This document shows, piece after piece, positions 12,007 through 57,369 of a DNA stretch of 64,000 nt. Every line of letters starts with the position of its first letter. The stretch's first letter is position 1. The stretch covers positions 310,001 through 374,000 of the forward strand of contig NZ_CP087134.1 of the NCBI RefSeq assembly GCF_020911925.1. Direction: 5' to 3'. This DNA is from Flavobacterium cupriresistens. GTDB lineage: Bacteria; Bacteroidota; Bacteroidia; Flavobacteriales; Flavobacteriaceae. The translations under genes were made by a program, and so were the position numbers. A model generated the notes under the pieces. That model made no database searches, had not been told where the DNA came from, and saw only the letters and a list, made by a program, of their open reading frames with translations.

Positions 12007-12159
12007 TTAGCTTGATAGTTCATTTAATTGAAAGGCACTCGTATTCCAAAATGAAACAACACTGCTATTTTCAAGACCAAATTCACAAAAAATGGCAGAC
12101 GCAAAATTTCGTAAGCCAATCCCCGCGTATCCTAAACTAAAAACCTTATTGTTTCTCAT
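12007..12159 (-). CDS. Small ORF of 50 codons coupled to neuC, function unknown
   Basis: The ATG at 12159-12157 overlaps the neuC stop by one base (TAATG). The same arrangement occurs at the two overlaps 9867 and 13280, so the frame is placed as a normal operon member. It encodes 50 residues with GYAGIGLRNFASAIF at 10-24 and SVVSFWNTSAFQ at 33-44, mildly hydrophobic and without a recognisable domain. The stop lies 11 bases before the CatB-type gene. It may be a small protein. It may instead be the surviving N terminus of a longer gene replaced by the acetyltransferase cassette. I do not recognise a family. Confidence 0.45.
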   Translation of the reverse strand: MRNNKVFSLGYAGIGLRNFASAIFCEFGLENSSVVSFWNTSAFQLNELSS

Positions 12160-13280
12160 TAAAAATCTTTAAACTGCTTTTGGTGATTCAGCTGCCAAAT
12201 ATCGTTTTTCTTTAGTGAATCCAAAAACAATTTGCTGCTATTTCCTTGTCCAAAATCAGTAGTAGAAGCCTGAACTTCGTGAGAATCTATAACCGATAAT
12301 GCTTCTTTTATACTTTCGGAAGCATAATCTGTATTGATAATATCGGCATGAACGGCCCTATTCTGCTGACGGGTTCCGATATTAATGATTGGAATTCCAT
12401 AATAAGGAGCTTCTCGAATTCCGGCGCTACTGTTTCCTATAATAAACTGGCTGTTTTTTAGCAAGGTTAGAAAGTATTCAAAACGAAGAGATGGGAAAAT
12501 TCTGAATCTTGTATTTTGTTTTAACTTTTCATAGGAATCTAAAATGAATTGACTCCCTAAATCATTATTTGGAAAAATAACAATATAATTATGATCATCC
12601 GCCAGTAAACAATCGACGAAAGTAGCTGCATATTCTTTCATGGATTGAAATTCCGTCGTTACGGGGTGAAACATCACAATGGCGAATTCCTGAAATGGAA
12701 TTTCATAATACTTCTTGGTGATCTCTAAATCGGGTAGTGTATCAGAGAACATAATATCAATATCGGGCGAACCTATAGCAAAAACAGATTCTTTTATTTC
12801 TCCCATTTGAATTAATCTTCTCTTGGCCTCTTTATTCGACACAAAATGAATGTGACTTAATTTACTAACACTATGACGGATTAATTCATCAACGGTTCCT
12901 GAGACTTCTCCACCTTCAATATGAGCGACCAAAATATTATTTAAAGACCCTACGATAGCTCCTGCAAGTGTTTCTACACGATCACCATGTACCACAATCA
13001 TATCGGGGTTGATCTTTTTACAGTAATTGGATAAACCTTCGATTGTTTTGGCCAAAGTTAAATCCATTGTGGTTTCGTGCGTGTGATTTTCGAAAGTAAA
13101 TACATTCTTAAAATTACAGCGCTCAATTTCGATTAAGGTATACCCATAAATTTCCTGCAGATGCATTCCGGTCACAAAGACATAAACTTCAAATTCCGGT
13201 TGTGCTTCCAGAATTGAAATCAGCGACTTTATTTTACCAAAATCGGCTCGGGTTCCGGTTAGGAAAAGGATTTTTTTCAT
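12159..13280 (-). CDS. neuC: UDP-N-acetylglucosamine 2-epimerase (hydrolysing), sialic acid pathway
   Basis: The 373-residue protein belongs to the NeuC/WecB GT-B-like family. NeuC enzymes convert UDP-GlcNAc to N-acetylmannosamine plus UDP, the first sialic acid step. Supporting motifs are TGTRADFGKIKSLI (8-21), VVHGDRVETLAGAI, AHIEGGEVSGTVDE, the nucleotide-site GNSSAGIREAPYYG, and GTRQQNR. NeuC and LegG share these features, so legionaminic use is possible. The companion NeuB resembles the meningococcal Neu5Ac synthase closely, and no 4,6-dehydratase or aminotransferase lies in this block. Neu5Ac is therefore the better reading. It overlaps the GT2 gene and the 50-codon frame by one base each. 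Confidence 0.9.
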   Translation of the reverse strand: MKKILFLTGTRADFGKIKSLISILEAQPEFEVYVFVTGMHLQEIYGYTLIEIERCNFKNVFTFENHTHETTMDLTLAKTIEGLSNYCKKINPDMIVVHGDRVETLAGAIVGSLNNILVAHIEGGEVSGTVDELIRHSVSKLSHIHFVSNKEAKRRLIQMGEIKESVFAIGSPDIDIMFSDTLPDLEITKKYYEIPFQEFAIVMFHPVTTEFQSMKEYAATFVDCLLADDHNYIVIFPNNDLGSQFILDSYEKLKQNTRFRIFPSLRFEYFLTLLKNSQFIIGNSSAGIREAPYYGIPIINIGTRQQNRAVHADIINTDYASESIKEALSVIDSHEVQASTTDFGQGNSSKLFLDSLKKNDIWQLNHQKQFKDF

Positions 13281-14071
13281 TAATTCGAAGCTTTCTTTTT
13301 GGACTGTTTTTGAATTTCAATTTTGGCTTTCAAAAGCAAGAATTCACGATTCATTGATTCAAAATATTTTTTGGTATTGGCAAATAGTATATTCTTTAAA
13401 AACGAACCCCAAATAACGGTTGTACTGAGAAACTCTTTTTGTCGTAATACATTCGAGGCAATGGTTTCGTTTTTATATCTCGCAATATTTCCTTTTACCG
13501 TCCTTTTTATGAAATAAAAATAAGTTTCGTTCAAATCTATTATTTGAAAGTCGTTCTTAACTACCCGGTCGGACCATTCTTTATCTTCAATCGCAACGAG
13601 CTCTTCATTAAACTTAAACTGCGCCCACACTTCTTTATTTATTAAAGCACAGGCGGCCATTAAACCACTATCAAGAGGTTCTAGTACTTTAAAATTATTT
13701 ATTACTGCTCGCTTATAATTCTCTATACTATTAATATATCTTATTCCTGCTATATTTTCATTGGCAGTTAAAGCAGCTAATGTATTTTTAAAGAAACTCG
13801 TGCCAACCGGAATCGCATGGGCACTTAACAATAAAACATATTTGGTTGCCGCAGCTTCGATTCCCACATTTATTGCTCTGCCGTAGGTAAAGTCTTTTAT
13901 ATTTACCACCCTGCAATTGTATTTTAAGGCTATCTCTACGCTATTGTCTGTCGAATAATTATCTACAATTATAATTTCTTTATAGTCTCCGGAATATACA
14001 TCTGTAATAATAGACAGAATATTCTCAAGAGCTTTTGCCTCATTTTTATTTCTAATAACAATAGATATCAT
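13280..14071 (-). CDS. GT2-family glycosyltransferase within the sialic acid block
   Basis: A 263-residue GT-A protein starting ISIVIRNKNEAKALENIL, with the family's IIIVDNYSTDNSVEIA. The usual DXD position reads LLSAHAIPV, so a canonical DXD is not obvious there. IEDKEWSDRV at about residue 180 is the acidic C-terminal GT2 motif. It lies between neuB (7-base gap) and neuC (1-base overlap) and so is part of the same transcriptional unit. Whether it adds the sialic acid or the sugar next to it is unknown. Known sialyltransferases are not GT2 enzymes. Confidence 0.82.
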   Translation of the reverse strand: MISIVIRNKNEAKALENILSIITDVYSGDYKEIIIVDNYSTDNSVEIALKYNCRVVNIKDFTYGRAINVGIEAAATKYVLLLSAHAIPVGTSFFKNTLAALTANENIAGIRYINSIENYKRAVINNFKVLEPLDSGLMAACALINKEVWAQFKFNEELVAIEDKEWSDRVVKNDFQIIDLNETYFYFIKRTVKGNIARYKNETIASNVLRQKEFLSTTVIWGSFLKNILFANTKKYFESMNREFLLLKAKIEIQKQSKKKASN

Positions 14072-14078
14072 AGCTTTT

Positions 14079-15137
14079 TTAGTGTTGAAAATCAGAAAAA
14101 TCTAACTGCTCATCGTTTTCTATATCTCTTGTTGCCACTTTTCCAATTAGATCATTAAAATGTTCTGCCAGAATTTTTCCTGTACCGGGACGTTTTACCC
14201 AGATATTCTCTTTTGATAATTTTTCTCCTTTTTTAATTGGTGCAATCGCGCAAACTGTTGCAAAAGCAAAATCTATAGTTACCTGCTCCTCTAGTGCCGG
14301 TTTTTTTGTTCCCCCGCGCATTAAAGCAATTTCGGCACTCGAAACAATTAATTCACCACAAGCTTTTTCATCCATACTGCAAACAATATCCGGACCTGTG
14401 CGTTGCATATGATCTGTAAAATGGCGTTCTAAAATACTGGCTCCAAGAGCAACAGCTCCCAAACAGGCATTATTATTTAAGGTATGATCACTCAATCCGA
14501 AAACTTTATCAGGAAATGCCTCATGCAATTCGGTCATGGCTCCATAACGAACCAAATGAATTGGTGTTGGATATAGGTTAGTCGTATGCAACAGAGCAAC
14601 GGGAATGGCATGTTTATCAAAAATAGCCACCGCTTTTTGAATACTTTCAATCGTATTCATACCTGTGCTCAAAATAACCGGTTTCCCAAAAGAAGCAATA
14701 TGTTCCAGTAGTGGATAATTGTTACATTCTCCTGAACCAATTTTATAAGCCGGTATATCAAATTTCTTTAATCTTTCTGCTGCTGCTCGTGAAAAAGGTG
14801 TTGAAATAAAGATCATACCTTTACTTTCAACGTAATTTTTAAGTTCCAGTTCCTCCTCTTCATTTAAGGAACAACGCTCCATGATTTCATAAATAGAAAC
14901 ATCTGCATTACCAGGAATTACTTTTTTGGCAGCACCACTCATTTCGTCTGCAACAATATGCGTCTGGTGTTTTACAACCTCAACTCCTGCTCTATATGCT
15001 GCATCAACCATTTCTTTAGCAACCTCAAGAGATCCTTCGTGATTAATTCCGATTTCGGCAATAACTAAAGGTGGAAAATCCGCTCCGATTTTTCTACCGG
15101 CAATTTCTATGTATGGATTCATATTTTTATTTTTCAT
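14079..15137 (-). CDS. neuB: N-acetylneuraminate synthase
   Basis: A 352-residue NeuB. It condenses ManNAc with phosphoenolpyruvate to give Neu5Ac. The TIM-barrel core has [92 protein letters not shown] and [10 protein letters not shown]. The C-terminal SAF (antifreeze-like) domain reads [20 protein letters not shown]. The core blocks agree closely with my memory of the Neisseria meningitidis enzyme, more than with PseI or LegI. The first ATG at 15137 overlaps the acyltransferase gene by 11 bases. A second ATG at 15122 would remove five residues and the overlap. Confidence 0.93.
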
Positions 15138-16233
15138 TATTAAAAACAGACAATGCTTTTTTCTTATTTAAAAAAGGAGTTTCTATATAGCGATAAGAAA
15201 TACCTGAAATAATAATTGTCAAAATTATAGACAAAATATAGATAAGCCAATCCTCTACAATATCCAATTTAAATAAAATATTTAATACCAAAACAATTAC
15301 TATTTGATGATACATATATAAGCCATATGATATTTTTCCCAAATAATTTAAAATTCTGTTTTCCAGTATTTTTTTTAATTGAGGGTTATAAACGAGACAC
15401 AATATTAACATGCCAAAAAGAAGTGGATATAAACATCTACTTACATAATGGTTTTCGAAATTTAATGTAATCAGTACTATTGTAGAAATACTCACAATTA
15501 TAAATAAAGGTGTATAGGTAAAAAATCTAATAACCGGATGTTTGCTATACATTAGATAGGCTAACATGGCTCCAATTGTAAGGGCATCCAGTTGAAAGCT
15601 ATAGATAAAACCTATTATTAAATTGGAATACGGAACACTTTGCAAAAACGTCATATCAATTAGATACAAAAGGGCATTATAACCAAAAATTAAGAATATA
15701 AATAACAGACTTAATCTTCTAACATTGTTTATTATCCACGGCCAAATAAGATAAAATTGTTCTTCAGTTCCAATTGACCAAGTCTGCGCTGCAAACGGAA
15801 TTATTTTAATCTGAATCAGCAAATTTGGCAGAAAGAAAACGAATAAAAGAATGACGATCAAATATTCAAAAGAATTCTTCAGATCTATTCGCATTCCCGG
15901 AATTTGAAATAAATCAAAAAAAGGAAGTACCCCTAAGGAAAGAATCACAATAACAAAGTACAAAGGCCAAATTCGCAATATTCTTCTGGTGTAAAACTTT
16001 TTATATGCAACTGTTGCATATTTTCCCTTTTCCATAAGTAGAAGAAAAGTAATTAAAAACCCGCTTAAAACAAAAAATAATGAAACCCCTAATTTTCCAA
16101 TGTGCTTAATTTCCTGAAAATGATTAGATATCCCAAAAAGCCCTTTATTTAACTCTAAATGACTAAATATCACCATAAAAGCTGCTATAGATCTTAGTCC
16201 ATTTAAATTAGGAAAATAAATCTTATCCTTCAT
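15127..16233 (-). CDS. Acyltransferase family 3 (OafA/YrhL-like) membrane protein
   Basis: A 368-residue protein with about ten membrane helices. The N terminus [20 protein letters not shown] contains the R-x10-H pair (14 and 25) typical of acyltransferase-3 domains. [17 protein letters not shown] and [15 protein letters not shown] are the other family blocks. Such proteins transfer acetyl or other acyl groups to surface polysaccharides. It overlaps neuA and neuB by 11 bases on each side, so it is embedded in the sialic acid operon. That makes a sialic acid or adjacent residue a plausible target. It lacks a C-terminal SGNH domain. Confidence 0.9.
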
Positions 16234-16897
16234 TTTGATTTAATGCTTGTATAAATTGTGCGTATTTAAAATCGTTTTCGGTATCAATATCAACTTGTGC
16301 AAAAATATGATTTACTTCGAACGGAAATGCATTTTCTGAAATAATAATATCATTCAAAATTAAGGATGCTTTTGTGATGTATAACAATCCATTTTCGAAG
16401 AAAAGAGGCTCTAAATCCTGACTTCGCTGGCCAATTGTATAATTAAAAGGAGTAAACTTTTTATTAATGATTTTTCCAAATTTCTGATGATTTCTGGTCA
16501 CTGTAAATAGACTGTCAACGTTTTCTTTTTGATAGGCTTCGAAAGTTTCTGCTAACAAATTCTCCGGTCGCAACGGATTAGTGGCTTGCAGTAAAATTAC
16601 GTTTTCAACGTCATTACTGTCAATAGATTCCAAAACATGTTTTAATGCTGAAACAGTGGGCTCTAAATCACCTGAAATTGCGGCAGGACGATCAATTACC
16701 TTTGCTCCAAACTGTAGGGCTATTTTTTTTATTTCGGCATTATCAGTCGAAACATAAATTTCATCAATTATGCTACCGTTTTGCTGGGCATATAAAATAG
16801 AATGTACTACTAATGGCAATGTTCCAAAAATCTGAATGTTTTTATCCGGAATTCTCTTTGAACCTCCCCGAGCGGGAATAATAGCTATAGTTTTCAT
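16223..16897 (-). CDS. neuA: Acylneuraminate cytidylyltransferase (CMP-sialic acid synthetase)
   Basis: A 224-residue enzyme that activates Neu5Ac with CTP. MKTIAIIPARGGSKRIPDKN is the CTP-binding loop; the alternative ATG nine codons upstream would add a tail (MQFDKNRKI) not expected in the family. VSTDNAEIKKIA, LLQATNPLRPE and VDIDTENDFKYA correspond to the substrate and metal-binding blocks. The chosen start leaves a 16-base gap after the upstream acyltransferase gene. It is followed by an acyltransferase-3 gene and neuB. PseF and LegF are related, so final substrate choice is inferred from the neighbouring neuB and neuC. Confidence 0.9.
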   Translation of the reverse strand: MKTIAIIPARGGSKRIPDKNIQIFGTLPLVVHSILYAQQNGSIIDEIYVSTDNAEIKKIALQFGAKVIDRPAAISGDLEPTVSALKHVLESIDSNDVENVILLQATNPLRPENLLAETFEAYQKENVDSLFTVTRNHQKFGKIINKKFTPFNYTIGQRSQDLEPLFFENGLLYITKASLILNDIIISENAFPFEVNHIFAQVDIDTENDFKYAQFIQALNQNEG

Positions 16898-16913
16898 AAT
16901 TTTTCTGTTTTTA

Positions 16914-17978
16914 TCAAACTGCATTTTCAGAAAGTTCCAGCCTTTTTTTCTTTGATTTCAATTGGCTTAAAATTGGCTTCTCAAGATAAATATAAGTTAT
17001 GGAAGAAACCAAAATCAGCATACCGAATCTAATCAGGAGCGCAATTGTCAAATCCTCAATATGAAAGTATTTTTTGATCCTGTAGTTACTAATAAAAAAA
17101 CAAACCGGGTATTGAAGAATATAAATTCCAAAACTGATCTCTCCTAAAAACACAAATACTTTCTTCTCAAAAAACCTTGTGATTAACCCCGTGTTGAGGG
17201 AAACTAAAATTATTATCGGTATTAAAAGCAATGCTGAGGCACTATTTAGGTTTAATTGAAATGGAAATTTTAAGGCTAAAATCATCAAACCAAAGAATAC
17301 GATAATTAGCAAATCATAATTCTTTCTTTTATCCTGCAGGAATTTTATAAAAAGTAATCCCGCGAGATTCCCAACCAAAAACTGATGAAGGTGTAATAAT
17401 GGATTGTAACGTAAAAACTCACCAATGTACACGGAATCACTTTTTCCAAAAGACGCATACAGTACATTAGTTACGATCTGAATAATAATCCAAAATAAAG
17501 CAACATAAATGGCCAGTCGTTTAATCGTTATTTTTTGATACACTTTATTAAACACAAAAGGAAAAACAGCATAGAATAAGGCTTCTACTGACAAAGACCA
17601 AGCTGGAAAATTAAACGAAAGAGCCTTTCCGGGAATCCAGGCCTGAATCATGAAAACATTTAAAAAAAAACCTGAAAAATCAAACATTCGATCTATCAAC
17701 TGTACAAAAATCACCAAAATTATGGCGAAAAAATATAACGGGTAGATTCGTGCAAACCTGTTTCTATAATACTCAACAAAGGACACCAAAGGGCTGTTCC
17801 CATAGGCAATAATCATTACAAAACCAGACAGAATAAAAAAATAGCTTACCCCAATGCCATTTTGAAAAATAAATGACAAGTGCTCGTTCTCGATAAAAAC
17901 ACTTCCCCCACCGTAATGGAAGATAAAAATCGAAGTGGCAGCCAGAAATCTGGTAAAGGTTAATTGGTCTATTCTCAT
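16914..17978 (-). CDS. Acyltransferase family 3 membrane protein (first tandem copy)
   Basis: A 354-residue, roughly ten-helix protein starting MRIDQLTFTRFLAATSIFIF and then HYGG, with R10 and H21 in the R-x10-H spacing. VSYFFILSGFVMIIAYG and FPAWSLSVEALFYAVFPFVF are the other acyltransferase-3 blocks. It is clearly paralogous to the next gene upstream (18085-19155): the same N-terminal motif, the same internal blocks and near-equal length point to tandem duplication. Acylation of a surface glycan in or next to the sialic acid block is the likely role. Confidence 0.9.
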   Translation of the reverse strand: MRIDQLTFTRFLAATSIFIFHYGGGSVFIENEHLSFIFQNGIGVSYFFILSGFVMIIAYGNSPLVSFVEYYRNRFARIYPLYFFAIILVIFVQLIDRMFDFSGFFLNVFMIQAWIPGKALSFNFPAWSLSVEALFYAVFPFVFNKVYQKITIKRLAIYVALFWIIIQIVTNVLYASFGKSDSVYIGEFLRYNPLLHLHQFLVGNLAGLLFIKFLQDKRKNYDLLIIVFFGLMILALKFPFQLNLNSASALLLIPIIILVSLNTGLITRFFEKKVFVFLGEISFGIYILQYPVCFFISNYRIKKYFHIEDLTIALLIRFGMLILVSSITYIYLEKPILSQLKSKKKRLELSENAV

Positions 17979-48764: not shown

Positions 48765-49793
48765 TTACAAGCCTAAGTTTTCTAAACTAATTTTAGAAAA
48801 ATAAATAGAAGTACCCGTAGTATTTCTGTGTGCAGAATAATAACTCATCCATAAATAACCATCTTTAATGACCATTCCAGGGTAAGAACAATCTCCGCCA
48901 CTTTTTAACGTCATTACTTTCTGGTAGCTGTTTGTTTTAAAATTATAATATCCCAAAATCACCTGATGAGATTCCCTTCCACTTAATAAAATACCCCCTT
49001 TATAAAACACAAAATCCGGTCCTCCAAAATCATAAATTGGAATTTCACCAAACCATTCCCATGAATTACCTCTATCAGTAGACTTTCCCATTATTCCATT
49101 CGAAAAATCTTTTCTGACAAGAACATAAAACGTTCCTTCCTCATCAACTTCTAAAGTAGCTTCCGTAGGTGTACCATTCATCTTTTGAACAGAATTGGTA
49201 TTGTTAAATTTCAAACCATCTGAACTTTTATATAAATCGAATAGTCCATTTAAACCATAGGCAAAAGAATATGCTTTTCCTTTATACCACGTAACTTTCC
49301 AAGGCCAAGCTTCATTACCTAAAAGCTTTGTCTCGTAACCTTTCTTTTTGTCTAATACAACATCCTTCAAATCTAACCACTCACCACTTTCTTTATTGTA
49401 ATCAGTTTTATAGTCTGTAAAAGCAACCAACTCACGATTAACATATTTTGATCCATGTATATAAGCAGTTAGTTGATTATCATTAACAGTAAATGATGCA
49501 TTTCGAAGATCAATCCCCGGCATTACGTATTCTTTTACAAGATCCCAATTCACACCATTAAAACTACTTAACACTTTCACCACACCATCCTTTCCTAAAC
49601 CATGTTTATCTGACTCTCTATATGAAATAAACCATTTATTATTAAAAAAAACCAAATCTGTAAAAGCATTATTCATCCCTTCATTAGTTGTTATTCTTTG
49701 CGTAATAACTTTATCATTATCATCTTCGTCTTGAGCACTACAAGAAATGCAAAATACCAGAACAACTAAAAAACTAAATAGTTTTATTTTCAT
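48765..49793 (-). CDS. Sialidase-like beta-propeller surface lipoprotein
   Basis: A 342-residue protein with a signal peptide ending at a lipid cysteine (C18, FCISC). Directly after it QDEDDND is an acid-rich stretch like the Bacteroidota lipoprotein export signal that takes lipoproteins to the cell surface. Repeats VLSSFNGVNWDLV, YKSSDGLKFNNT, KSTDRGNSWEWFGE and ILLSGRESHQ resemble Asp-box/BNR-like blades of sialidases and GH43-type propellers. An RIP/FRIP arginine and other sialidase catalytic residues were not found, so enzymatic activity is uncertain. It lies between wzx and pseI in the biosynthesis operon; a role in glycan trimming or binding is plausible. Confidence 0.7.
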   Translation of the reverse strand: MKIKLFSFLVVLVFCISCSAQDEDDNDKVITQRITTNEGMNNAFTDLVFFNNKWFISYRESDKHGLGKDGVVKVLSSFNGVNWDLVKEYVMPGIDLRNASFTVNDNQLTAYIHGSKYVNRELVAFTDYKTDYNKESGEWLDLKDVVLDKKKGYETKLLGNEAWPWKVTWYKGKAYSFAYGLNGLFDLYKSSDGLKFNNTNSVQKMNGTPTEATLEVDEEGTFYVLVRKDFSNGIMGKSTDRGNSWEWFGEIPIYDFGGPDFVFYKGGILLSGRESHQVILGYYNFKTNSYQKVMTLKSGGDCSYPGMVIKDGYLWMSYYSAHRNTTGTSIYFSKISLENLGL

Positions 49794-49798
49794 ATGGT

Positions 49799-50842
49799 TT
49801 AATTATTAATAAGGTGTTCCCATTTTAATGCATCTCCTTTTTCTAAATCAGTTAAGACTTTCTGCCCTAAAATCTCATTGTAGTGTTTTGGATGCATACC
49901 AAAACCAGGTCTGATTGACCGTACATTCTCTTCTGTTATTACATCACCTGCCACTATACCTTCAACAACATACAGTGATCTAGAAAAATCTTTTCCTTTT
50001 ATTTGCTTTTCAGTCAATTTGTAATCAACAACTCCTATTGCGCTTTCGGCCTCTCTAATTGCTTTTACCATAGCTGTAAACTCCTCTTCATTCATAGAAA
50101 AAGATGCGTCAGGACCACCAATAGAACGATCTAGTATAAAATGCTTTTCTATAATTTTGGCTCCAAAAACTGTGGCTACAATTGGAACTGTTGCACCCAT
50201 AGTATGGTCAGACAGACCACTTATTACATTATAACGTTCTGCTAAATCTTTTACCATACACATATTTGCTTCTTCAATCGGAGCTGGATAACTAGAAGTA
50301 CATTTCAGTAATGCAATATCATTGTTACCCACTCTTTTACAAGCATCTAAAGCCAATTCTATATCTGCTTGTTCAGCTATTCCTGTCGATAATATAATTG
50401 GTTTACCTTTAGAAGCGGTATATTCAATTAGAGGAATATCAGTTATTTCAAAAGAAGCTATTTTGTACGCTGGTACATTTAGCTCTTCTAAAAAATCTAC
50501 AGCAGTTTTATCAAATGGTGACGAAAAGCAGATTAGACCTTCTTCTTTTGCTACTTTAAATAGTTCTTCATGCCATTCCCAAGGAGTATAAGCTTCTTGG
50601 TAAAGCTGGTAATAGTTTTTTCCTTCCCAAATAGTGCCCTTAATTAAAAAGTCTTCTTTATCACTATCGATTGTAAGTGTATCAGCAGTATATGTTTGTA
50701 GTTTGATACAGTTAGCGCCGGCTCTTTTAGCTGCTTTTATTGTTTCAATTGCAACTTCGATACTTCCATTATGGTTCGCAGAAAGTTCGGCTATTATAAA
50801 AACAGGGCTTGAATTATTTATTTCAAAAGAATCAATTTTCAT
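49799..50842 (-). CDS. pseI: Pseudaminic acid synthase
   Basis: A 347-residue NeuB-family enzyme. FIIAELSANHNGSIEVAIET, NCIKLQTYTADTLTID, GTIWEGKNYYQLYQEAYTPW, CFSSPFDKTAVDFLEEL, YKIASFEITDIPLIEY and KIIEKHFILDRSIGGPDASF are characteristic of PseI, in particular WEGKxxYxLYxEAxTPW. It condenses 6-deoxy-AltdiNAc with PEP to give pseudaminic acid. An SAF domain (LYVVEGIVAGDVITEENVRS) ends the protein. It is distinct from the Neu5Ac-type NeuB at 14079. It overlaps the formyltransferase gene by four bases. Confidence 0.92.
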   Translation of the reverse strand: MKIDSFEINNSSPVFIIAELSANHNGSIEVAIETIKAAKRAGANCIKLQTYTADTLTIDSDKEDFLIKGTIWEGKNYYQLYQEAYTPWEWHEELFKVAKEEGLICFSSPFDKTAVDFLEELNVPAYKIASFEITDIPLIEYTASKGKPIILSTGIAEQADIELALDACKRVGNNDIALLKCTSSYPAPIEEANMCMVKDLAERYNVISGLSDHTMGATVPIVATVFGAKIIEKHFILDRSIGGPDASFSMNEEEFTAMVKAIREAESAIGVVDYKLTEKQIKGKDFSRSLYVVEGIVAGDVITEENVRSIRPGFGMHPKHYNEILGQKVLTDLEKGDALKWEHLINN

Positions 50843-51705
50843 ATATTTTCAAATTTATTATTAACAATAACATTATTTATTGCATTTCTTAACTTTGTTA
50901 TTTTCAATAAGCCATTAGGTGTTTTTATTCTAATTGGATCAATCGTAATAATTGTTCCATCAGGCAAATTATAATCAAAACCGTAATCATCCAATTCAAC
51001 CCAATCGATAGTTATTTTTTGATTCATATAATAAGTAAATGCTCCTGGATAAGGGAAAGATTGTGCTCTTATCCAATTATAGATTCGCTCACGTTGCCAG
51101 GACCAATTTATTTGACCATCTTCAGGAGTCCTTTTTCCAAAATATGTTGCTTTAAAATTATTTTGAGGAGTAGTAACTAAATTATTATTATCAATTTTAT
51201 TTAATACACTTTCTACTAATGGAAAATAACTAGCTTCATATTTCTCTAAAATTGAAGCTCCTGTGTCTTTCGAATTAATTTCTATTTGAACTTGTGCTAT
51301 AATGTCTCCTGTATCACATCCAGAATCTATTAAATGAGCAGTTATTCCTGTTACAATTTCATTATTAATTATTGACCATACGTGGGGTGTTCTTCCTCTA
51401 TATTTAGGAAGTAAAGATCCATGGATGTTAAAAGCTAAAATACTAGGAACATCGATAATATTTTGCTCAATTAAGAAAAGATAATTTATTGAGATCAATA
51501 CATCGCATGAAACTTTTGATAAAAATTCATCTGAATTTCCATCTCTTGGATTACCTGCAAAATAAGGTAAACTATTAGTTTTACAAAAATCTTGAATTGA
51601 AATAGAACTTTTATCTGTCATGACGAATTCCAATTCGCATGATAAAGCCACTTGTTGTAAAATACTATAGCCTAATCCTCCCGATGCTAATAATCCTATT
51701 TTCAT
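50839..51705 (-). CDS. Formyltransferase of the methionyl-tRNA/sugar N-formyltransferase family
   Basis: A 288-residue enzyme using 10-formyl-tetrahydrofolate. The catalytic triad is present: N93 and H95 in FNIHGSLLPKYRGRTP and D131 in SGCDTGDII, with the spacing expected of the family. The C terminus (YPGAFTYYMNQKITIDWVEL) is the sugar-enzyme-type tail. Placed between pseI and pseH with four-base overlaps on both sides, it probably formylates an amine of the pseudaminic-type sugar or its precursor. It could act together with, or instead of, the acetyltransferase PseH. The acceptor is not deducible. Confidence 0.85.
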   Translation of the reverse strand: MKIGLLASGGLGYSILQQVALSCELEFVMTDKSSISIQDFCKTNSLPYFAGNPRDGNSDEFLSKVSCDVLISINYLFLIEQNIIDVPSILAFNIHGSLLPKYRGRTPHVWSIINNEIVTGITAHLIDSGCDTGDIIAQVQIEINSKDTGASILEKYEASYFPLVESVLNKIDNNNLVTTPQNNFKATYFGKRTPEDGQINWSWQRERIYNWIRAQSFPYPGAFTYYMNQKITIDWVELDDYGFDYNLPDGTIITIDPIRIKTPNGLLKITKLRNAINNVIVNNKFENI

Positions 51706-52259
51706 TTCTCATTAATTTTAGAGTGAATAATAACATCTATAAATTTATCTTGAAACTTGCAATGTTCTTTAAGTATAGCTTCTTTTAAGAAACCTGCAGC
51801 TTCAACCGCTTTGTATAAATGAGGTCTTAAATCAAAAGCATAAGTGTATATTTTATGCAGATCTAATTCATTATACGCTAATTGTTCAATCAACCCGAGA
51901 TATATCCTCCAATAATCATGAAAATGGTTCTCCTCTAAATCAGTGTCCATTATAAATGAAATTTCAGCATTCATATCAATCCAATTAATATGAACTAAAC
52001 CTCCGTATCCAATACATACATCTTTTTTTAAGAAAGAAAATAGAATTTGCGTAGGTCTTTCCTGCTCAAAAAGCTTAGACACAACATTATTAAAATAATG
52101 CTCTTGGTTATCAACAGTTAATGGTTGATCCTGACGCAAATGATAGATTTGTTCATTTCTCCATTTCATTATATCTAAACGATCTTCATAACGAATAGGC
52201 ACAAGTGAAAAATTCTCCAGCTTAAATTCCTGCTTATTTAATACTTTGTATTTATTCAT
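51702..52259 (-). CDS. pseH: GNAT N-acetyltransferase (PseH-like)
   Basis: A 185-residue GNAT protein. LVPIRYEDRLDIMKWRNE and HLRQDQPLTVDNQEHYF form the start of the fold, ICIGYGGLVHINW-type strands follow, and DLHKIYTYAFDLRPHLYKAVEAAGF is the acetyl-CoA loop. In the pseudaminic pathway PseH acetylates the C4 amine produced by PseC. The gene is coupled by four-base overlaps to the formyltransferase gene and to the SGNH-like gene. The assignment uses the neighbours more than unique motifs, since GNAT enzymes are widespread. Confidence 0.8.
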   Translation of the reverse strand: MNKYKVLNKQEFKLENFSLVPIRYEDRLDIMKWRNEQIYHLRQDQPLTVDNQEHYFNNVVSKLFEQERPTQILFSFLKKDVCIGYGGLVHINWIDMNAEISFIMDTDLEENHFHDYWRIYLGLIEQLAYNELDLHKIYTYAFDLRPHLYKAVEAAGFLKEAILKEHCKFQDKFIDVIIHSKINEK

Positions 52260-52952: not shown

Positions 52953-53405
52953 TTATAATCCAGCTTGCAATTTCACAACAATTTTCTTAACATTTACATG
53001 ACCGTCATATAATGCCATATGAGCAAAATTATTGGGAATGATACAAAAGTATCCCTTAGGAACCACAATTTTTTTTATCAAATCTGATGTAAACAAAGCA
53101 TAATCATCCGCTTCATTATATTGCAAATATTCCTCAACTTCAGAATCAACATCTGCATAGGCAATTACATCATATCCCTCAACAGTAATATGGATATCCA
53201 TAAGTCTCTTATGAGCCTCTAAAATTTTTCCATTAAATTCTGCTGTAACACTTTCACTATTTATTGGAATCAATGTTATATTATTATCTATTACTTTTTC
53301 AGATATGGAATCTAAAGATTGGTCAACCAAAACATCAATTAACTTATCAATTTCATGATAAATTACTTTATACAATCCAATATTCTCTATTTTATCAGTT
53401 ATCAT
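52953..53405 (-). CDS. YhcH/YjgK/YiaL-family protein
   Basis: A 150-residue beta-rich protein of the YhcH/EbgC family. MDIHITVEGYDVIAYAD, YLQYNEADDYALF and VPKGYFCIIPNNFAHMA are the conserved strands, with the His of HI and the metal-type cluster near AHMALYD. YhcH is found in sialic acid catabolic operons in Escherichia coli, and a sugar isomerase or anomerase role has been proposed. Here it precedes the fused synthase/cytidylyltransferase in transcription order by 14 bases downstream of it. The role in the pseudaminic pathway is not known. Confidence 0.8.
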   Translation of the reverse strand: MITDKIENIGLYKVIYHEIDKLIDVLVDQSLDSISEKVIDNNITLIPINSESVTAEFNGKILEAHKRLMDIHITVEGYDVIAYADVDSEVEEYLQYNEADDYALFTSDLIKKIVVPKGYFCIIPNNFAHMALYDGHVNVKKIVVKLQAGL

Positions 53406-53419
53406 AATAATATTCCAAA

Positions 53420-55192
53420 TTAAACAGTAGTTATTTTTGTTTTAGCATTTAAAGTATCTATTAAACTTTGATCCGTCTTATATTTAAGTTTAATATGCCC
53501 GTTTATCTTTTCCAATTCAGGGTTTTCGTCTAATAATTTAAAAACATCTTTAAGCGTGAAAGTTGAAGCTGAACCTAAATTTTCATAAATTTTATTAAAT
53601 AACGTTATATCCTCATCATAATCCAATGTCAATCTATAATCACGAACTAAATCTTCTGGCAAATCAACTAAGTTAATTTTAAAATATTCCTCATTGTTCA
53701 TGAAATACCAAGTCATATATTCAGACAAATCAGCAGATGGGAAATAACTCTTTACTTTTTCTAAAGCTTGAACATTTATTATTTCCAAATTCGTTCCAAC
53801 TGCTGCGTTCTTAGCAGCTGTATAATCAGCACCACTTTCAAAATGTGATTTAAGTAAAACTTTACAAATTTCATTATCAATAAAAGGACAATCTGCAGTT
53901 ACTCTAATAACTACATCAGTTTGTAATTTTCTAGTTACATCCAAATATCTCTGTACAACATCTTCTGGATCTCCTTGATGAAAAATAACTGATTGATTAT
54001 ATGTAAAATCTTTAAGAGGTAAATCAGAATCCAAATTTGATGTTGCTAAAACTACATTATTAACATTATCAAACTTACACGCATTTTTTATACAAAACTC
54101 TACCGAAGTAAGATCACCAATTTTAAGCAACGCTTTTTCTTTGAGTCTGGTCGATTTTAGCCTGCATGCTATTATTACAGCAATACTAGCTTTTTTAAAA
54201 TCTTCCTTTTGTAAAGTATCTCCCTTATTTTTGGAAGTGGAAATTATATGGAAATCAGAAATTAAACCCTTGATTTCTTTTGAATTTAAACCTTCTTTTC
54301 CAGACCTCTTGAATTCAAAATCATTTTCAATTGATAAATACTCCCCTTTTTCTTTTTTCTCTTTCAATAAAGGTTTCATTATTGATTTTTCCAGATACTG
54401 ACACTCTCTTTCATTAATAAAATCAGCATTCAACAGCTCCTCATAATTATTAATTCCTTCAACCATCTTAATGAACTGCGAGACTCCAAGACTGGAATAC
54501 ATATCGTATTTAGTCTCTGCGTTTTCCAACAACACGTGTTTTTCAATAATGTCAGCACCTGATGCAATTGCCAAAACAGGTAACCACACTGCATAATCAG
54601 ACTCGCGATCGACATGATCGGCAAAAACAATTCTCTTCGAAAAAATATCCTTTATCTTTTTAATCTTAGAAATTCCCGAATCTTGCAATAAAGTAGGATA
54701 TCCTTGGAAACCAACTTCAATTAAAATTTCTTCAGGATTCAAATTGTCTTCATATTTTTTTAGAAAATATTCAATTTCATTTAAATCTAAAGAAGCAACA
54801 TTTATAATTAATTTCTTTTGAGAAAGATCAACTTTAGACAAGGCATTTAAAACAGCGTAGTTAAAAAGTACCGAAACTTGTAGTTTAATCCCATAAATCT
54901 TTGAATGGTTTTCTTCCAAAATTTGAACACCGTATTCATCAAAAATATCCAACCAGACATCTTTAGTATTACCAGCCAAACTAATTATGTCGTTCCATTC
55001 TGAAGAGTCAAATAATAATTCCTGATAAACGGGATACCATTCAAAATCTTTAGTCGCTAATTTATCTGGATGTAGTGGCTGAAACTTCATCCCGAAGTTT
55101 CCACTAAATTTCGAAAATTGCAATATTAGTTCTTTAATATAGTTGATATCTCCTCCATGAGTATTAGCAACTTCAATTATTGTATACGCCAT
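53420..55192 (-). CDS. Fused NeuB-family synthase and SpsF-type cytidylyltransferase
   Basis: A 590-residue fusion. Residues 1-260 read as a NeuB TIM barrel: YTIIEVANTHGGD replaces IAEIGxNHNG, DHVDRESDYA replaces the DHT motif and IIEKHVLLENAETKYD is the substrate-side block. Residues about 272-334 look like a degenerate SAF domain. Residues 336-590 are a nucleotidyltransferase of the SpsF/PseF-like group: IAVIIACRLKSTRLKEKALL, FHQGDPEDVVQRYLD and VIRVTADCPFIDNEI. The second half most probably makes CMP-pseudaminic acid. The first may be a second synthase with altered substrate or a pseudo-enzyme, since a full PseI is present at 49799. Coupled six bases from pseC. Confidence 0.82.
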   Translation of the reverse strand: MAYTIIEVANTHGGDINYIKELILQFSKFSGNFGMKFQPLHPDKLATKDFEWYPVYQELLFDSSEWNDIISLAGNTKDVWLDIFDEYGVQILEENHSKIYGIKLQVSVLFNYAVLNALSKVDLSQKKLIINVASLDLNEIEYFLKKYEDNLNPEEILIEVGFQGYPTLLQDSGISKIKKIKDIFSKRIVFADHVDRESDYAVWLPVLAIASGADIIEKHVLLENAETKYDMYSSLGVSQFIKMVEGINNYEELLNADFINERECQYLEKSIMKPLLKEKKEKGEYLSIENDFEFKRSGKEGLNSKEIKGLISDFHIISTSKNKGDTLQKEDFKKASIAVIIACRLKSTRLKEKALLKIGDLTSVEFCIKNACKFDNVNNVVLATSNLDSDLPLKDFTYNQSVIFHQGDPEDVVQRYLDVTRKLQTDVVIRVTADCPFIDNEICKVLLKSHFESGADYTAAKNAAVGTNLEIINVQALEKVKSYFPSADLSEYMTWYFMNNEEYFKINLVDLPEDLVRDYRLTLDYDEDITLFNKIYENLGSASTFTLKDVFKLLDENPELEKINGHIKLKYKTDQSLIDTLNAKTKITTV

Positions 55193-55198
55193 ATTAAT

Positions 55199-56359
55199 TT
55201 AATTATTTTTAGAACTGAATGCCATGATTGTTTCTATAACGAATTCTTGTTCTTCCTCAGTCAAAGTTGGATACATTGGTAAGCTAATACATTTTGAATA
55301 ATAATCTTCTGAGTTACTCAAATCTGTATCAGAATTATATCCAATCGTTTTGTAATAAGGCAACTGATGAACGGGAATATAATGAATTTGAGCATAAATA
55401 TTATTTTGATGCAAATAATCGTATAATTCTTTTCTGTTATCAACTTCAATTACAAAAAGATGATGTGCATTTAAACTATTATCAGGTAAAACTTGAAATT
55501 TAAGTCTCCCATTAAATGCATCCTTATATCTCTTCGCAATTTCATTTCTTTTTGCAACTCCATTTTTATTTCTAGCCAATTGTGATATCCCCAGAGCAGC
55601 CTGAAAATCGGTAATTCTATAATTAAAGCCTAAAGTCTGCATTTCATAAAACCAACCACCATGATTTTCTGACATATTCTCTTTTGTAATTCCATGTGAA
55701 CGCAAAAGCAATAACTTTTTATAAACATCTTCTGAATTTGTGGTCACCATACCTCCTTCTCCACAGGCAATATGCTTCACAGGATGAAATGAGAAAACAG
55801 CAGCATCCGCATAAATTCCATTACCGCAATATTGTTTTTGTTTTTTGGAATCTAAAAAATATCCACCCGGAGCATGACAAGCATCTTCAAGTATCCACAA
55901 CCCATGCATATCAGCCAATTGTTTAAACCCTTCTAATTGGATGGGAAGCCCAGCAAAGTCAACAGGTATAATACCTTTAAAGAACCCTTTAGGCTTACTC
56001 TCAATAAGTTCTTTTGTTCTTTCAAGCGATAACAAATAAGTATCTCTATCAATATCAGCAAACCAAACTTCGCCACCAACAAATCGAACACAATTTGCCG
56101 AAGCTGCGAAAGTTATAGGTGTTGTTATAACTCTATCTCCCTCTTTAAGTCCAAGTGCCATAACTGCAATATGAAGACCCGCTGTTGCATTATTTACTGC
56201 TACCGCGTACTTTGCTTCAACAGATTCAGCAAATTTCTTCTCAAATTCTTTAATTTTAGGACCTTGAGTCAAAAAATCAGACTGTAACGTTTCAATTACA
56301 GCATTAATATCCTCGTGTGTAATATCTTGTCTGCCGTAAGGTATAACTTTATTTCCCAT
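55199..56359 (-). CDS. pseC: UDP-4-amino-4,6-dideoxy-HexNAc aminotransferase (PseC)
   Basis: A 386-residue DegT/DnrJ/EryC1 enzyme. NNATAGLHIAVMAL, TTPITFAASANCVRF, LEDACHAPGGYF and FSFHPVKHIACGEGGMV (PLP lysine 195) are PseC signatures. It aminates the C4-keto product of PseB to give UDP-4-amino-4,6-dideoxy-beta-L-AltNAc. The stop of pseB overlaps the ATG by one base (TAATG), and the fusion follows after six bases, so pseB, pseC and the fusion are one translational set. Confidence 0.93.
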   Translation of the reverse strand: MGNKVIPYGRQDITHEDINAVIETLQSDFLTQGPKIKEFEKKFAESVEAKYAVAVNNATAGLHIAVMALGLKEGDRVITTPITFAASANCVRFVGGEVWFADIDRDTYLLSLERTKELIESKPKGFFKGIIPVDFAGLPIQLEGFKQLADMHGLWILEDACHAPGGYFLDSKKQKQYCGNGIYADAAVFSFHPVKHIACGEGGMVTTNSEDVYKKLLLLRSHGITKENMSENHGGWFYEMQTLGFNYRITDFQAALGISQLARNKNGVAKRNEIAKRYKDAFNGRLKFQVLPDNSLNAHHLFVIEVDNRKELYDYLHQNNIYAQIHYIPVHQLPYYKTIGYNSDTDLSNSEDYYSKCISLPMYPTLTEEEQEFVIETIMAFSSKNN

Positions 56360-57369
56360 TATAATTCGAAATTTGCGTCAACATGTTTTTTTATCAAAGT
56401 TCTCAGACTATCAACTGTTTCCCAATCTTCGTTAGATCCGGAATTATAATTAAATCCTTCTTCTACTTTACTGGCATTAAAATGACTTAGATATTCATTT
56501 AAATTAAAATTAGGTACAGAAGGTAAAATAGTATAATATTTACCTAAGTCATAAGTATAAAAAGAATCCGAAGCGGTAATCATTTCTTCATGTATCTTTT
56601 CACCTGGTCTAATTCCAACAACTTCAATTGGGCAATCCGGTGCAACTGCCTGCGCAACATCTGTAATTCTATAAGATGGTATTTTTGGTATAAAGATTTC
56701 CCCACCCCAAGCGTTTTTCATTGCATGCATAACCATATCCACACCTCCTTGCAGCGAAATATTAAATCTCGTCATTGAAATATCCGTAATTGGTAATTTT
56801 CCTTCTTTCTTTTTATTGATAAAAAAAGGAATAACAGATCCGTTAGACCCCATAACATTCCCATATCTAACTACTGAAAACTTAATAGGATTAAAACCTT
56901 TAATGTTATTTGCAGCAACAAATAATTTATCCGAAGTTAATTTCGTCGCACCATAAAGATTAATTGGTGCGCAGGCCTTGTCTGTTGACAAAGCAACTAC
57001 ATTTTGAACATTTGTTTGCATAGCGGCATGAATCACATTTTGCGCCCCTCCTATATTGGTTTTAATACACTCATCAGGATTGTACTCCGCCAAATGAACA
57101 TGTTTCATTGCTGCTGCATGAATAACATAATCAACACCTTGAAAAGCCCTAATTAATCTTTGCTCATCTCTAACATCTCCGAGGAAAAATCGAATTTGCG
57201 GATACCCACTTAAAGGGTATTCTTGCGCCATCTGAAACTGTTTTTGCTCATCTCTTGAGAAAATAATCACTTTCTTAACTAATGGATAAGTGCTAAAAAT
57301 GTGTTTCGTAAGGGCTTTTCCTAAAGACCCCGTTCCTCCTGTTATAAGTATTACTTTATTATTTAACAT
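56359..57369 (-). CDS. pseB: UDP-GlcNAc 4,6-dehydratase, 5-inverting (PseB)
   Basis: A 336-residue soluble SDR. LITGGTGSLGKAL is the NADP loop (11-17), HAAAMKHVHLAEYNPDE is the family block, and NLYGATKLTSDK gives Tyr139 and Lys143, the FlaA1/PseB-type catalytic pair. It converts UDP-GlcNAc to a UDP-4-keto-6-deoxy-AltNAc. This separates it from the WbpM-type dehydratase at 33237, which has Met in place of Tyr and membrane helices. It is followed by pseC with a one-base overlap. Confidence 0.94.
   Translation of the reverse strand: MLNNKVILITGGTGSLGKALTKHIFSTYPLVKKVIIFSRDEQKQFQMAQEYPLSGYPQIRFFLGDVRDEQRLIRAFQGVDYVIHAAAMKHVHLAEYNPDECIKTNIGGAQNVIHAAMQTNVQNVVALSTDKACAPINLYGATKLTSDKLFVAANNIKGFNPIKFSVVRYGNVMGSNGSVIPFFINKKKEGKLPITDISMTRFNISLQGGVDMVMHAMKNAWGGEIFIPKIPSYRITDVAQAVAPDCPIEVVGIRPGEKIHEEMITASDSFYTYDLGKYYTILPSVPNFNLNEYLSHFNASKVEEGFNYNSGSNEDWETVDSLRTLIKKHVDANFEL

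Follow-up and report, generated by a model that had tools for sequence, protein, structure and literature searches.

The Pse operon and its fusion protein

Why does an operon that already encodes a canonical PseI carry a second NeuB-type barrel, and why is this barrel joined to a cytidylyltransferase? The question is raised by a Pse operon of Flavobacterium cupriresistens, located in the window (the whole stretch of DNA that was analysed, 64,000 nucleotides). The operon runs in the order PseB, PseC, fusion, YhcH family protein, SGNH hydrolase, GNAT protein, formyltransferase and PseI, as follows:

56359..57369, (-): PseB; TIGR03589, 499.3 bits, above cut-off
55199..56359, (-): PseC; TIGR03588, 452.4 bits, above cut-off
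53420..55192, (-): fusion of 590 aa (NeuB-like barrel, SAF-like segment and SpsF-type cytidylyltransferase); one open frame
54428..55192, (-): NeuB-like TIM barrel of the fusion, residues 1-255 (approx.); modelled with eight strands, pocket remodelled
54194..54427, (-): SAF-like segment of the fusion, residues 256-333; from the fold alignment, Arg314 equivalent R296 retained
53420..54193, (-): SpsF-type cytidylyltransferase domain of the fusion, residues 334-590; PF02348, predicted CMP-Pse synthetase
52953..53405, (-): YhcH/DUF386 protein (anomerase family); PF04074, 74.6 bits
52256..52912, (-): SGNH/GDSL-like hydrolase; weak PF13472 match, under cut-off
51702..52259, (-): GNAT acetyltransferase-like protein; PseH model 22.8 bits, far under the cut-off of 93.1
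50839..51705, (-): formyltransferase family protein
49799..50842, (-): canonical PseI with intact active-site signature; TIGR03586, 508.8 bits

A sequence-only reading of this locus had claimed that a barrel, a SAF-like segment and a nucleotidyltransferase are contained in the 590 residues and that a separate, intact PseI lies nearby. Both claims were borne out. PseI is encoded 2.6 kb from the fusion with its signature complete, and the three-part layout was recovered by Pfam, by an AlphaFold2 model and by fold alignment, the domain borders of the first two being in accord. The barrel scored 58.5 bits against PF03102 (gathering cut-off 22.1). It missed the NCBIfam equivalog cut-offs for NeuB (64.9 of 399.65) and PseI (62.8 of 340.25). 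The Pfam SAF model gave no match in the fusion, although structural alignment does span residues 256-333. When the fusion was aligned structurally to NeuB and PseI (PDB 1xuu and 8h2c), it matched over residues 1-334; Foldseek added nothing to this.

As the two halves are also known as separate genes, a frameshift, mis-assembly or read-through that merged two genes was considered. Against this, the gene is a single open frame in a genome assembled as one contig of 5.74 Mb, where the fusion is present in one copy, and many independent genomes from several phyla carry full-length relatives. The probability of an artefact is thus negligible, and the fusion is confirmed as real.

Some side observations were made around the operon. 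Beside PseI, at 48765-49793 of the window, is a protein whose BNR-repeat match is weak (15 bits, under the cut-off of 31.4) and whose start, as judged by eye, is lipoprotein-like; its homologues come after PseI in loci L001, L002 and L030. Another nonulosonate cluster lies elsewhere in the window (12159-17978) and includes the following genes:

12159-13280: NeuC
14079-15137: NeuB; 400.7 bits, just above the cut-off of 399.65
16223-16924: PseF-like cytidylyltransferase; 145.7 bits against a cut-off of 205.7

With the NeuB of this cluster, the window contains three NeuB-type barrels. No protein of the source genome exceeds the PseG cut-off (TIGR03590). Across 30 compared regions, PseG-like (UDP-sugar hydrolase) and 185-aa GNAT proteins were mutually exclusive (sites include window 51702-52259 and L001 12931-13959): the former occurred in 15 regions, the latter in 10 and neither in 5. 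One of the 10 GNAT cases, from a legionaminate-type cluster, is a weak match (27%), and in L100 GNAT is joined to a second acetyltransferase domain. All five of the PseG-like proteins tested were above the TIGR03590 cut-off. The 185-aa GNAT protein may replace PseG or signal another route.

The cytidylyltransferase half and the missing PseF

The C-terminal half scored 81.9 bits against PF02348 (cut-off 22.6) and gave a domain-wide fold match to PDB 6oew. Many residues between 337 and 530 were invariant in an alignment of 55 rows, one of them a duplicate. The PseF model TIGR03584 did not match the fusion up to an E value of 0.1.

We then asked how often PseF accompanies the fusion. Thirteen fusion genomes were available: G000, G648, G365, G747, G762, G795, G884 and those of loci L001 and L003-L007 (L002 belongs to G762, and L029 was excluded as lying on the same contig as L002). 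PseF above the TIGR03584 cut-off was found in 1/13 of these, compared with 15/23 genomes from the family sample that encode PseI and gave no fusion match (Fisher p 0.0013). In G1069 (L007, Gillisia marina), one operon encodes a full PseF (292.7 bits; L007 12506-13210) in addition to the fusion, which makes it a natural test case for redundancy. G747 and G884 each encode a further CTP_transf_3 protein about 8 kb from the fusion (144.3 bits in G747 and 143.3 bits in G884). For these reasons the fusion is not always the sole candidate. The other two cytidylyltransferases of this family in the source genome are 36 kb and 4.3 Mb away from the fusion. Among 18 clusters with a barrel, fused or separate, three hold another cytidylyltransferase of the family (the PseF of L007, and those of L028 and L031, ~8 kb off). 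G648 has just two CTP_transf_3 proteins, the fusion and one that adjoins a KDO8P synthase and is presumably KdsB for that reason; its NeuB-family proteins are limited to PseI and the fusion. By elimination, the fusion alone would be left to activate Pse in this genome.

The fusion comes directly after PseC in 8/13 fusion clusters, a place held by PseF in other clusters. According to excerpts of PMC7371886, the gene that follows PseC in a Vibrio cluster joins an SpsF-type domain to an aldo-keto reductase; it was proposed as a substitute for the missing NeuA homologue, and the legend of Fig. 5 gives PseAc2 spectra for that strain. In Clostridium, PseF was likewise assigned through homology to sps genes (PMC13317340, in part).

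For comparison, 12 of the 23 fusion-free clusters were examined. The choice was deliberate, seven having a PseF-type gene close to PseI and five having none, so that the numbers of PseF and SpsF types among them are not frequencies. The seven carried a PseF type, which was weak in L109 and L110. The other five (L099-L103) are Pse clusters with an SpsF-type cytidylyltransferase and no barrel; the barrel is therefore not required for CMP transfer as such. In a tree, barrel-linked cytidylyltransferases were separate from six barrel-free ones with a support of 0.935. In L099-L103, the SpsF-type gene was seen to lie beside aldo-keto-reductase-like and class-III-aminotransferase-like genes, and L103 4436-6505 encodes a cytidylyltransferase (2-252) and an aminotransferase-like part (258-689) in one protein. 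The class-III aminotransferase identity was tested for L100 and is matched by L103, while the neighbour names KdsB, LegB/C/I/G/X, AKR and GSAM were read from BLAST labels and sequence starts.

Taken together, the C-terminal half is most likely a CMP-Pse synthetase, a predicted role that the gene context supports well. It probably performs the PseF step, 12/13 fusion genomes being without PseF above the cut-off.

The barrel keeps its metal site and loses the PEP surroundings

The barrel pocket was compared with that of NeuB and PseI by hhalign profile alignment (probability 99.7), using 164 fusion rows (163 distinct) drawn from the best matches listed, of 1122 matching proteins, and 15 canonical synthases. 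Residue positions are in NmNeuB numbering. The roles of K53, E134, S154, H215, H236 and D247 are those usually assigned to them in NeuB; His215 and His236 are taken by us to be the metal ligands of NeuB. The list of NeuB site residues was that given in an excerpt of PMC6795526.

The equivalents of E25, H30, K53, Q55, F112, K129, H215, E234, H236, D247 and R314 were retained in 164/164 rows, including the metal-site histidines (H193 and H219 of the fusion) and the arginine R296. In NeuB, PEP is surrounded by positions 110, 129, 131, 132, 182 and 184, of which 132, 182 and 184 are less conserved and variable in true NeuBs too (PMC7371886, in part). The fusions carry fixed replacements in all 164 rows: T110 is replaced by D82, position 131 by Q105, position 133 by S107, S154 by N131 and N184 by Q163. 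In addition, S213 is replaced by A191 in 98% of the rows, the Glu134 equivalent is Val or Ile, and position 132 is variable. The remodelled pocket thus comprises D82, Q105, S107, V108, N131, Q163 and A191. The replacement residues at the PEP-surrounding positions were absent from the 15 canonical sequences compared. On the sugar side, the exceptions to retention were N74, which has no aligned equivalent, Y186, which is Tyr in 90%, and the position of F288, which is Tyr. By eye, D82 and N131 resemble KDO8P synthase positions.

The altered barrel of the sequence-only reading was thereby confirmed: a complete NeuB-like fold with its metal histidines, in which the PEP surroundings are replaced. 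True synthases conserve the PEP side and vary more on the sugar side (excerpts of PMC7371886); the alignment suggests that conservation in the fusion barrels is roughly the inverse. Loss of the acid at position 134 is weak evidence when taken alone, as three canonical-type loci (L128, L133 and L140) have Gln or Asn there.

A barrel that has lost the acid at 134 and its PEP surroundings could be a dead copy of NeuB that serves only to hold the cytidylyltransferase, to dock it to PseI, as through domain-swapped dimerisation, or to sense the product. The SAF-like segment with its retained Arg makes a NeuB-like dimer possible, and cytidylyltransferases of the same type occur without a barrel. Over 162 sequences, moreover, the mean identity of the barrel (0.526) is below that of the cytidylyltransferase (0.617), the SAF-like part having 0.444. 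A different result was obtained with three close relatives. Here, dN was 0.074-0.080 for the barrel, lower than for the cytidylyltransferase (0.104-0.148) and PseI (0.110-0.136), with PseC at 0.092-0.101, PseB at 0.038-0.055 and dS near saturation. A dead copy is also at odds with metal ligands and new polar residues fixed in 164/164 rows, and with the concentration of conservation in the pocket: in 103 sequences of <80% identity, 19/28 pocket positions were at least 98% conserved compared with 52/330 overall (p 6e-11), the 28 being the mapped alignment positions minus residue 266, picked after viewing the alignment. The barrel may act as a scaffold or substrate feeder, two options of the sequence-only reading, and its pocket is conserved and not decayed; we consider a dead copy rather unlikely.

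Occurrence of the barrel as a fusion and as a separate gene

At E<=1e-60, the fusion was detected in 1/299 genomes of the family sample, 5/398 of the genus sample and 3/395 of the phylum sample, the source genome being counted each time. A protein database gave 1122 matches to the fusion at E<=1e-3 (best 120 inspected); the matches listed include Flavobacterium, Gillisia, Dyadobacter, Ignavibacteria, Akkermansiaceae, Geosporobacter and Leptolyngbya, and those listed in a whole-barrel search include Candidatus Brocadia. The fusion is rare yet widespread. Nearly all of the best 120 rows of the whole-barrel search were fusions, with P0121 (345 aa) and P0122 (512 aa) as shorter exceptions. A search with a shorter piece, where a length limit bars fusions, brought up unfused barrels 331-335 residues long that share the pocket, together with intermediates. 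Among mobile elements, three viral contigs matched, all with cytidylyltransferase-type sequences, and six plasmid records matched the C-terminal half only. With P0192 as query there was no match in phages, while protein P0188 matched 79 plasmid records.

We refer to these barrels as GFQ barrels, a label coined here for a separate NeuB subfamily. Genome searches yielded five that are encoded apart from a cytidylyltransferase domain, one in a Pse cluster (L141) and four in clusters of legionaminate-type appearance (L142, L143, L145 and L147). In all five, an SpsF-type cytidylyltransferase is the neighbouring gene and a canonical-type NeuB is found in the same region. The arrangement in 18 genomes is thus fused in 13, and split and adjacent in five. 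Among the genome-search matches, 29 loci (L112-L140) and the regions retrieved were compared: an SpsF-type sequence lay within about 1.5 kb at 6/6 GFQ loci (two fusions, four split) versus 0/23 canonical loci, four of which had the PseF type nearby. In L148, an SpsF-type gene adjoins a canonical NeuB, and spsE and spsF of B. subtilis belong to one sps gene set (PMC7439481, in part).

A tree of 54 barrels separated 26 non-canonical from 28 canonical ones with a support of 1.0. The fusions and the unfused barrels with the full signature formed one group (support 1.0), in which the unfused ones were interspersed among the fusions. Tree distances of barrel and cytidylyltransferase were correlated over 18 modules (r 0.96; 0 of 2000 permutations) and over the five unfused pairs alone (r 0.97). 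This agreement fits a working pair, but common inheritance in one operon predicts the same and the genomes are not independent. In the split barrels of legionaminate-type clusters D82 and K103 are lost, so that a single shared reaction is not assured; R296 is lost in one of them, and four related split barrels have Glu or Asp where K129 would align. From these data, the GFQ barrel and the SpsF-type cytidylyltransferase appear to form a co-evolving activation module, in which the barrel would handle the nonulosonate itself.

The simplest view of the fusion would be a PseF variant with an inconsequential leftover domain. It would account for the conserved cytidylyltransferase residues and for the PseF-like place directly after PseC in 8/13 fusion clusters. 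A fixed pocket would be unexpected in a leftover, and so would the pairing of separate barrel genes with cytidylyltransferases of this kind in legionaminate-type clusters. We regard this view as scarcely probable.

A canonical-type synthase accompanies the barrel

In 13/13 fusion genomes, a NeuB-family protein other than the fusion was found above the cut-off. At cluster level, a second, canonical-type NeuB/PseI was present in 13/13 fusion clusters and in all 18 barrel clusters, within about 11 kb (~11 kb in G1067). Most of the partner synthases aligned have the full active-site signature. In L006, the partner has Asp at the positions of Glu25 and Glu134. The PseI of G1067 (Magasanikbacteria, L090 4768-5850) is above the PseI cut-off at 394.6 bits and seems to be without the His215 metal ligand, as it reads SEN where NeuB has SDH.

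Several candidates were rejected in this survey. Four low PF03102 matches in G365 and G1065 were not accepted as extra NeuBs; three were read by eye as DAHP synthases, and the fourth was dropped as it did not match the canonical profile. L005 was first a candidate for a fusion without PseI, and the adjoining stretch was found to have PseI, PseB and PseC homologues.

The sequence-only reading had offered the formation of a different nonulosonate as one role of the barrel. The barrel would then be an active PEP-dependent synthase, making a second nonulosonate or covering for a weak PseI, with the product activated by the fused half. The complete barrel, the full-length fold match to NeuB and PseI, the metal ligands and the K53 and K129 equivalents retained in the fusions, and a partner PseI without the His215 equivalent in G1067 speak for such an enzyme. 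The weight of the evidence is on the other side: PEP-surrounding replacements absent from the 15 canonical sequences, Val or Ile for Glu134, Glu or Asp for Lys129 in four split barrels, and a canonical-type NeuB/PseI in 18/18 clusters, its signature intact in the window. The role of a second PEP-dependent synthase is disfavoured for the barrel, and we consider it very unlikely.

YhcH and SGNH neighbours and the proposed role

At E<=1e-8, YhcH homologues were found in 10/18 barrel clusters compared with 0/12 comparators (Fisher p 0.0016), and SGNH homologues in 8/18 compared with 0/12 (Fisher p 0.010), neither value being corrected for phylogeny. YhcH was not found in the other 8/18 barrel clusters at this threshold, which the YhcH of G1067 narrowly misses. 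In L142 and L147, both legionaminate-type, barrel, cytidylyltransferase, YhcH and SGNH are all present, and the genes of L147 overlap. The YhcH protein of the window scored 46.0 bits with TIGR00022, above the cut-off of 45.5, and 42.4 bits with the NanQ model NF040884, under the cut-off of 160. YhcH of E. coli is described in part of PMC8141875 as an anomerase that feeds open-form Neu5Ac to the aldolase, from which we infer that the barrel may meet an open-chain nonulosonate.

We propose that the fusion is the nonulosonate-activating component of the Pse operon, consisting of a CMP-Pse half and a barrel partner that does not use PEP; we would give this proposal about an even chance. The separate PseI would make Pse, and the C-terminal SpsF-type half would transfer CMP to it, standing in for the missing PseF. 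The N-terminal GFQ barrel, with its metal site and most of the sugar-side pocket retained and the PEP surroundings lost, would not be a second PEP-condensing synthase. Its ligand and substrate is probably the nonulosonate itself, either right ahead of CMP activation or in the course of it, perhaps in the open-chain form, which a YhcH-type anomerase could supply. The module would exist either as a fusion or as separate adjacent genes. That other bacteria encode the halves side by side as two genes suggests a helper or an extra step, so far unrecognised, in the formation of these surface sugars, and the chance that the nonulosonate pathway has such an enzymatic step is fair.

A bolder version, which we regard as doubtful, is that GFQ barrels are new metal-dependent enzymes that rework open-chain Pse or Leg from YhcH, without PEP, and pass the changed sugar to the cytidylyltransferase. 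Such enzymes could break and re-form the C3-C4 bond made by NeuB, or rework the 2-keto acid end; the changed sugar could be, for example, a C4 epimer. If this were true, some annotated Pse/Leg clusters would yield other sugars.

The proposed activating role has consequences for annotation. Nonulosonate products are predicted from cluster genes; these predictions, and counts of genes, would be led astray by a conserved NeuB paralogue whose role is probably other than that of a synthase. Some sources name it 'N-acetylneuraminate synthase family protein' or 'N,N'-diacetyllegionaminate synthase'. The module also raises the question of whether there is a step between nonulosonate synthesis and CMP activation, with YhcH involved.

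Comparison with known systems

In the literature searched, with limited terms and coverage, we recognised no paper on a NeuB-type barrel that is joined to, or paired as a separate protein with, an SpsF-type cytidylyltransferase. The fusion resembles NeuB and PseI (PF03102; TIGR03569 and TIGR03586) in fold, metal ligands, most sugar-side residues and the SAF Arg. It differs from them in its low equivalog scores, in the replaced PEP-surrounding residues and 134 acid, and in that its barrel stands beside a canonical-type synthase in 18/18 clusters.

The C-terminal half resembles SpsF of B. subtilis in PF02348, fold and conserved residues, to which the fusion adds the N-terminal GFQ barrel. According to PMC7439481, B. 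subtilis needs spsF to transfer Leg to the spore surface, whereas Leg synthesis does not depend on it. The cluster of Vibrio sp. B9-25K2, as described in excerpts of PMC7371886, also has a bifunctional SpsF-type gene after PseC and is missing a NeuA homologue, but the partner of SpsF there is an aldo-keto reductase instead of a NeuB-like barrel. The fusion partners of SpsF-type domains now include this published aldo-keto reductase, the class-III-aminotransferase-like part in L103 and the barrel. In NeuB of Leptospira interrogans (PMC3438082, in part), a NeuB-type domain is likewise fused to a pathway domain, a C-terminal phosphatase-like one; unlike in the fusion, the barrel there is taken as a working synthase and the partner is not a cytidylyltransferase.
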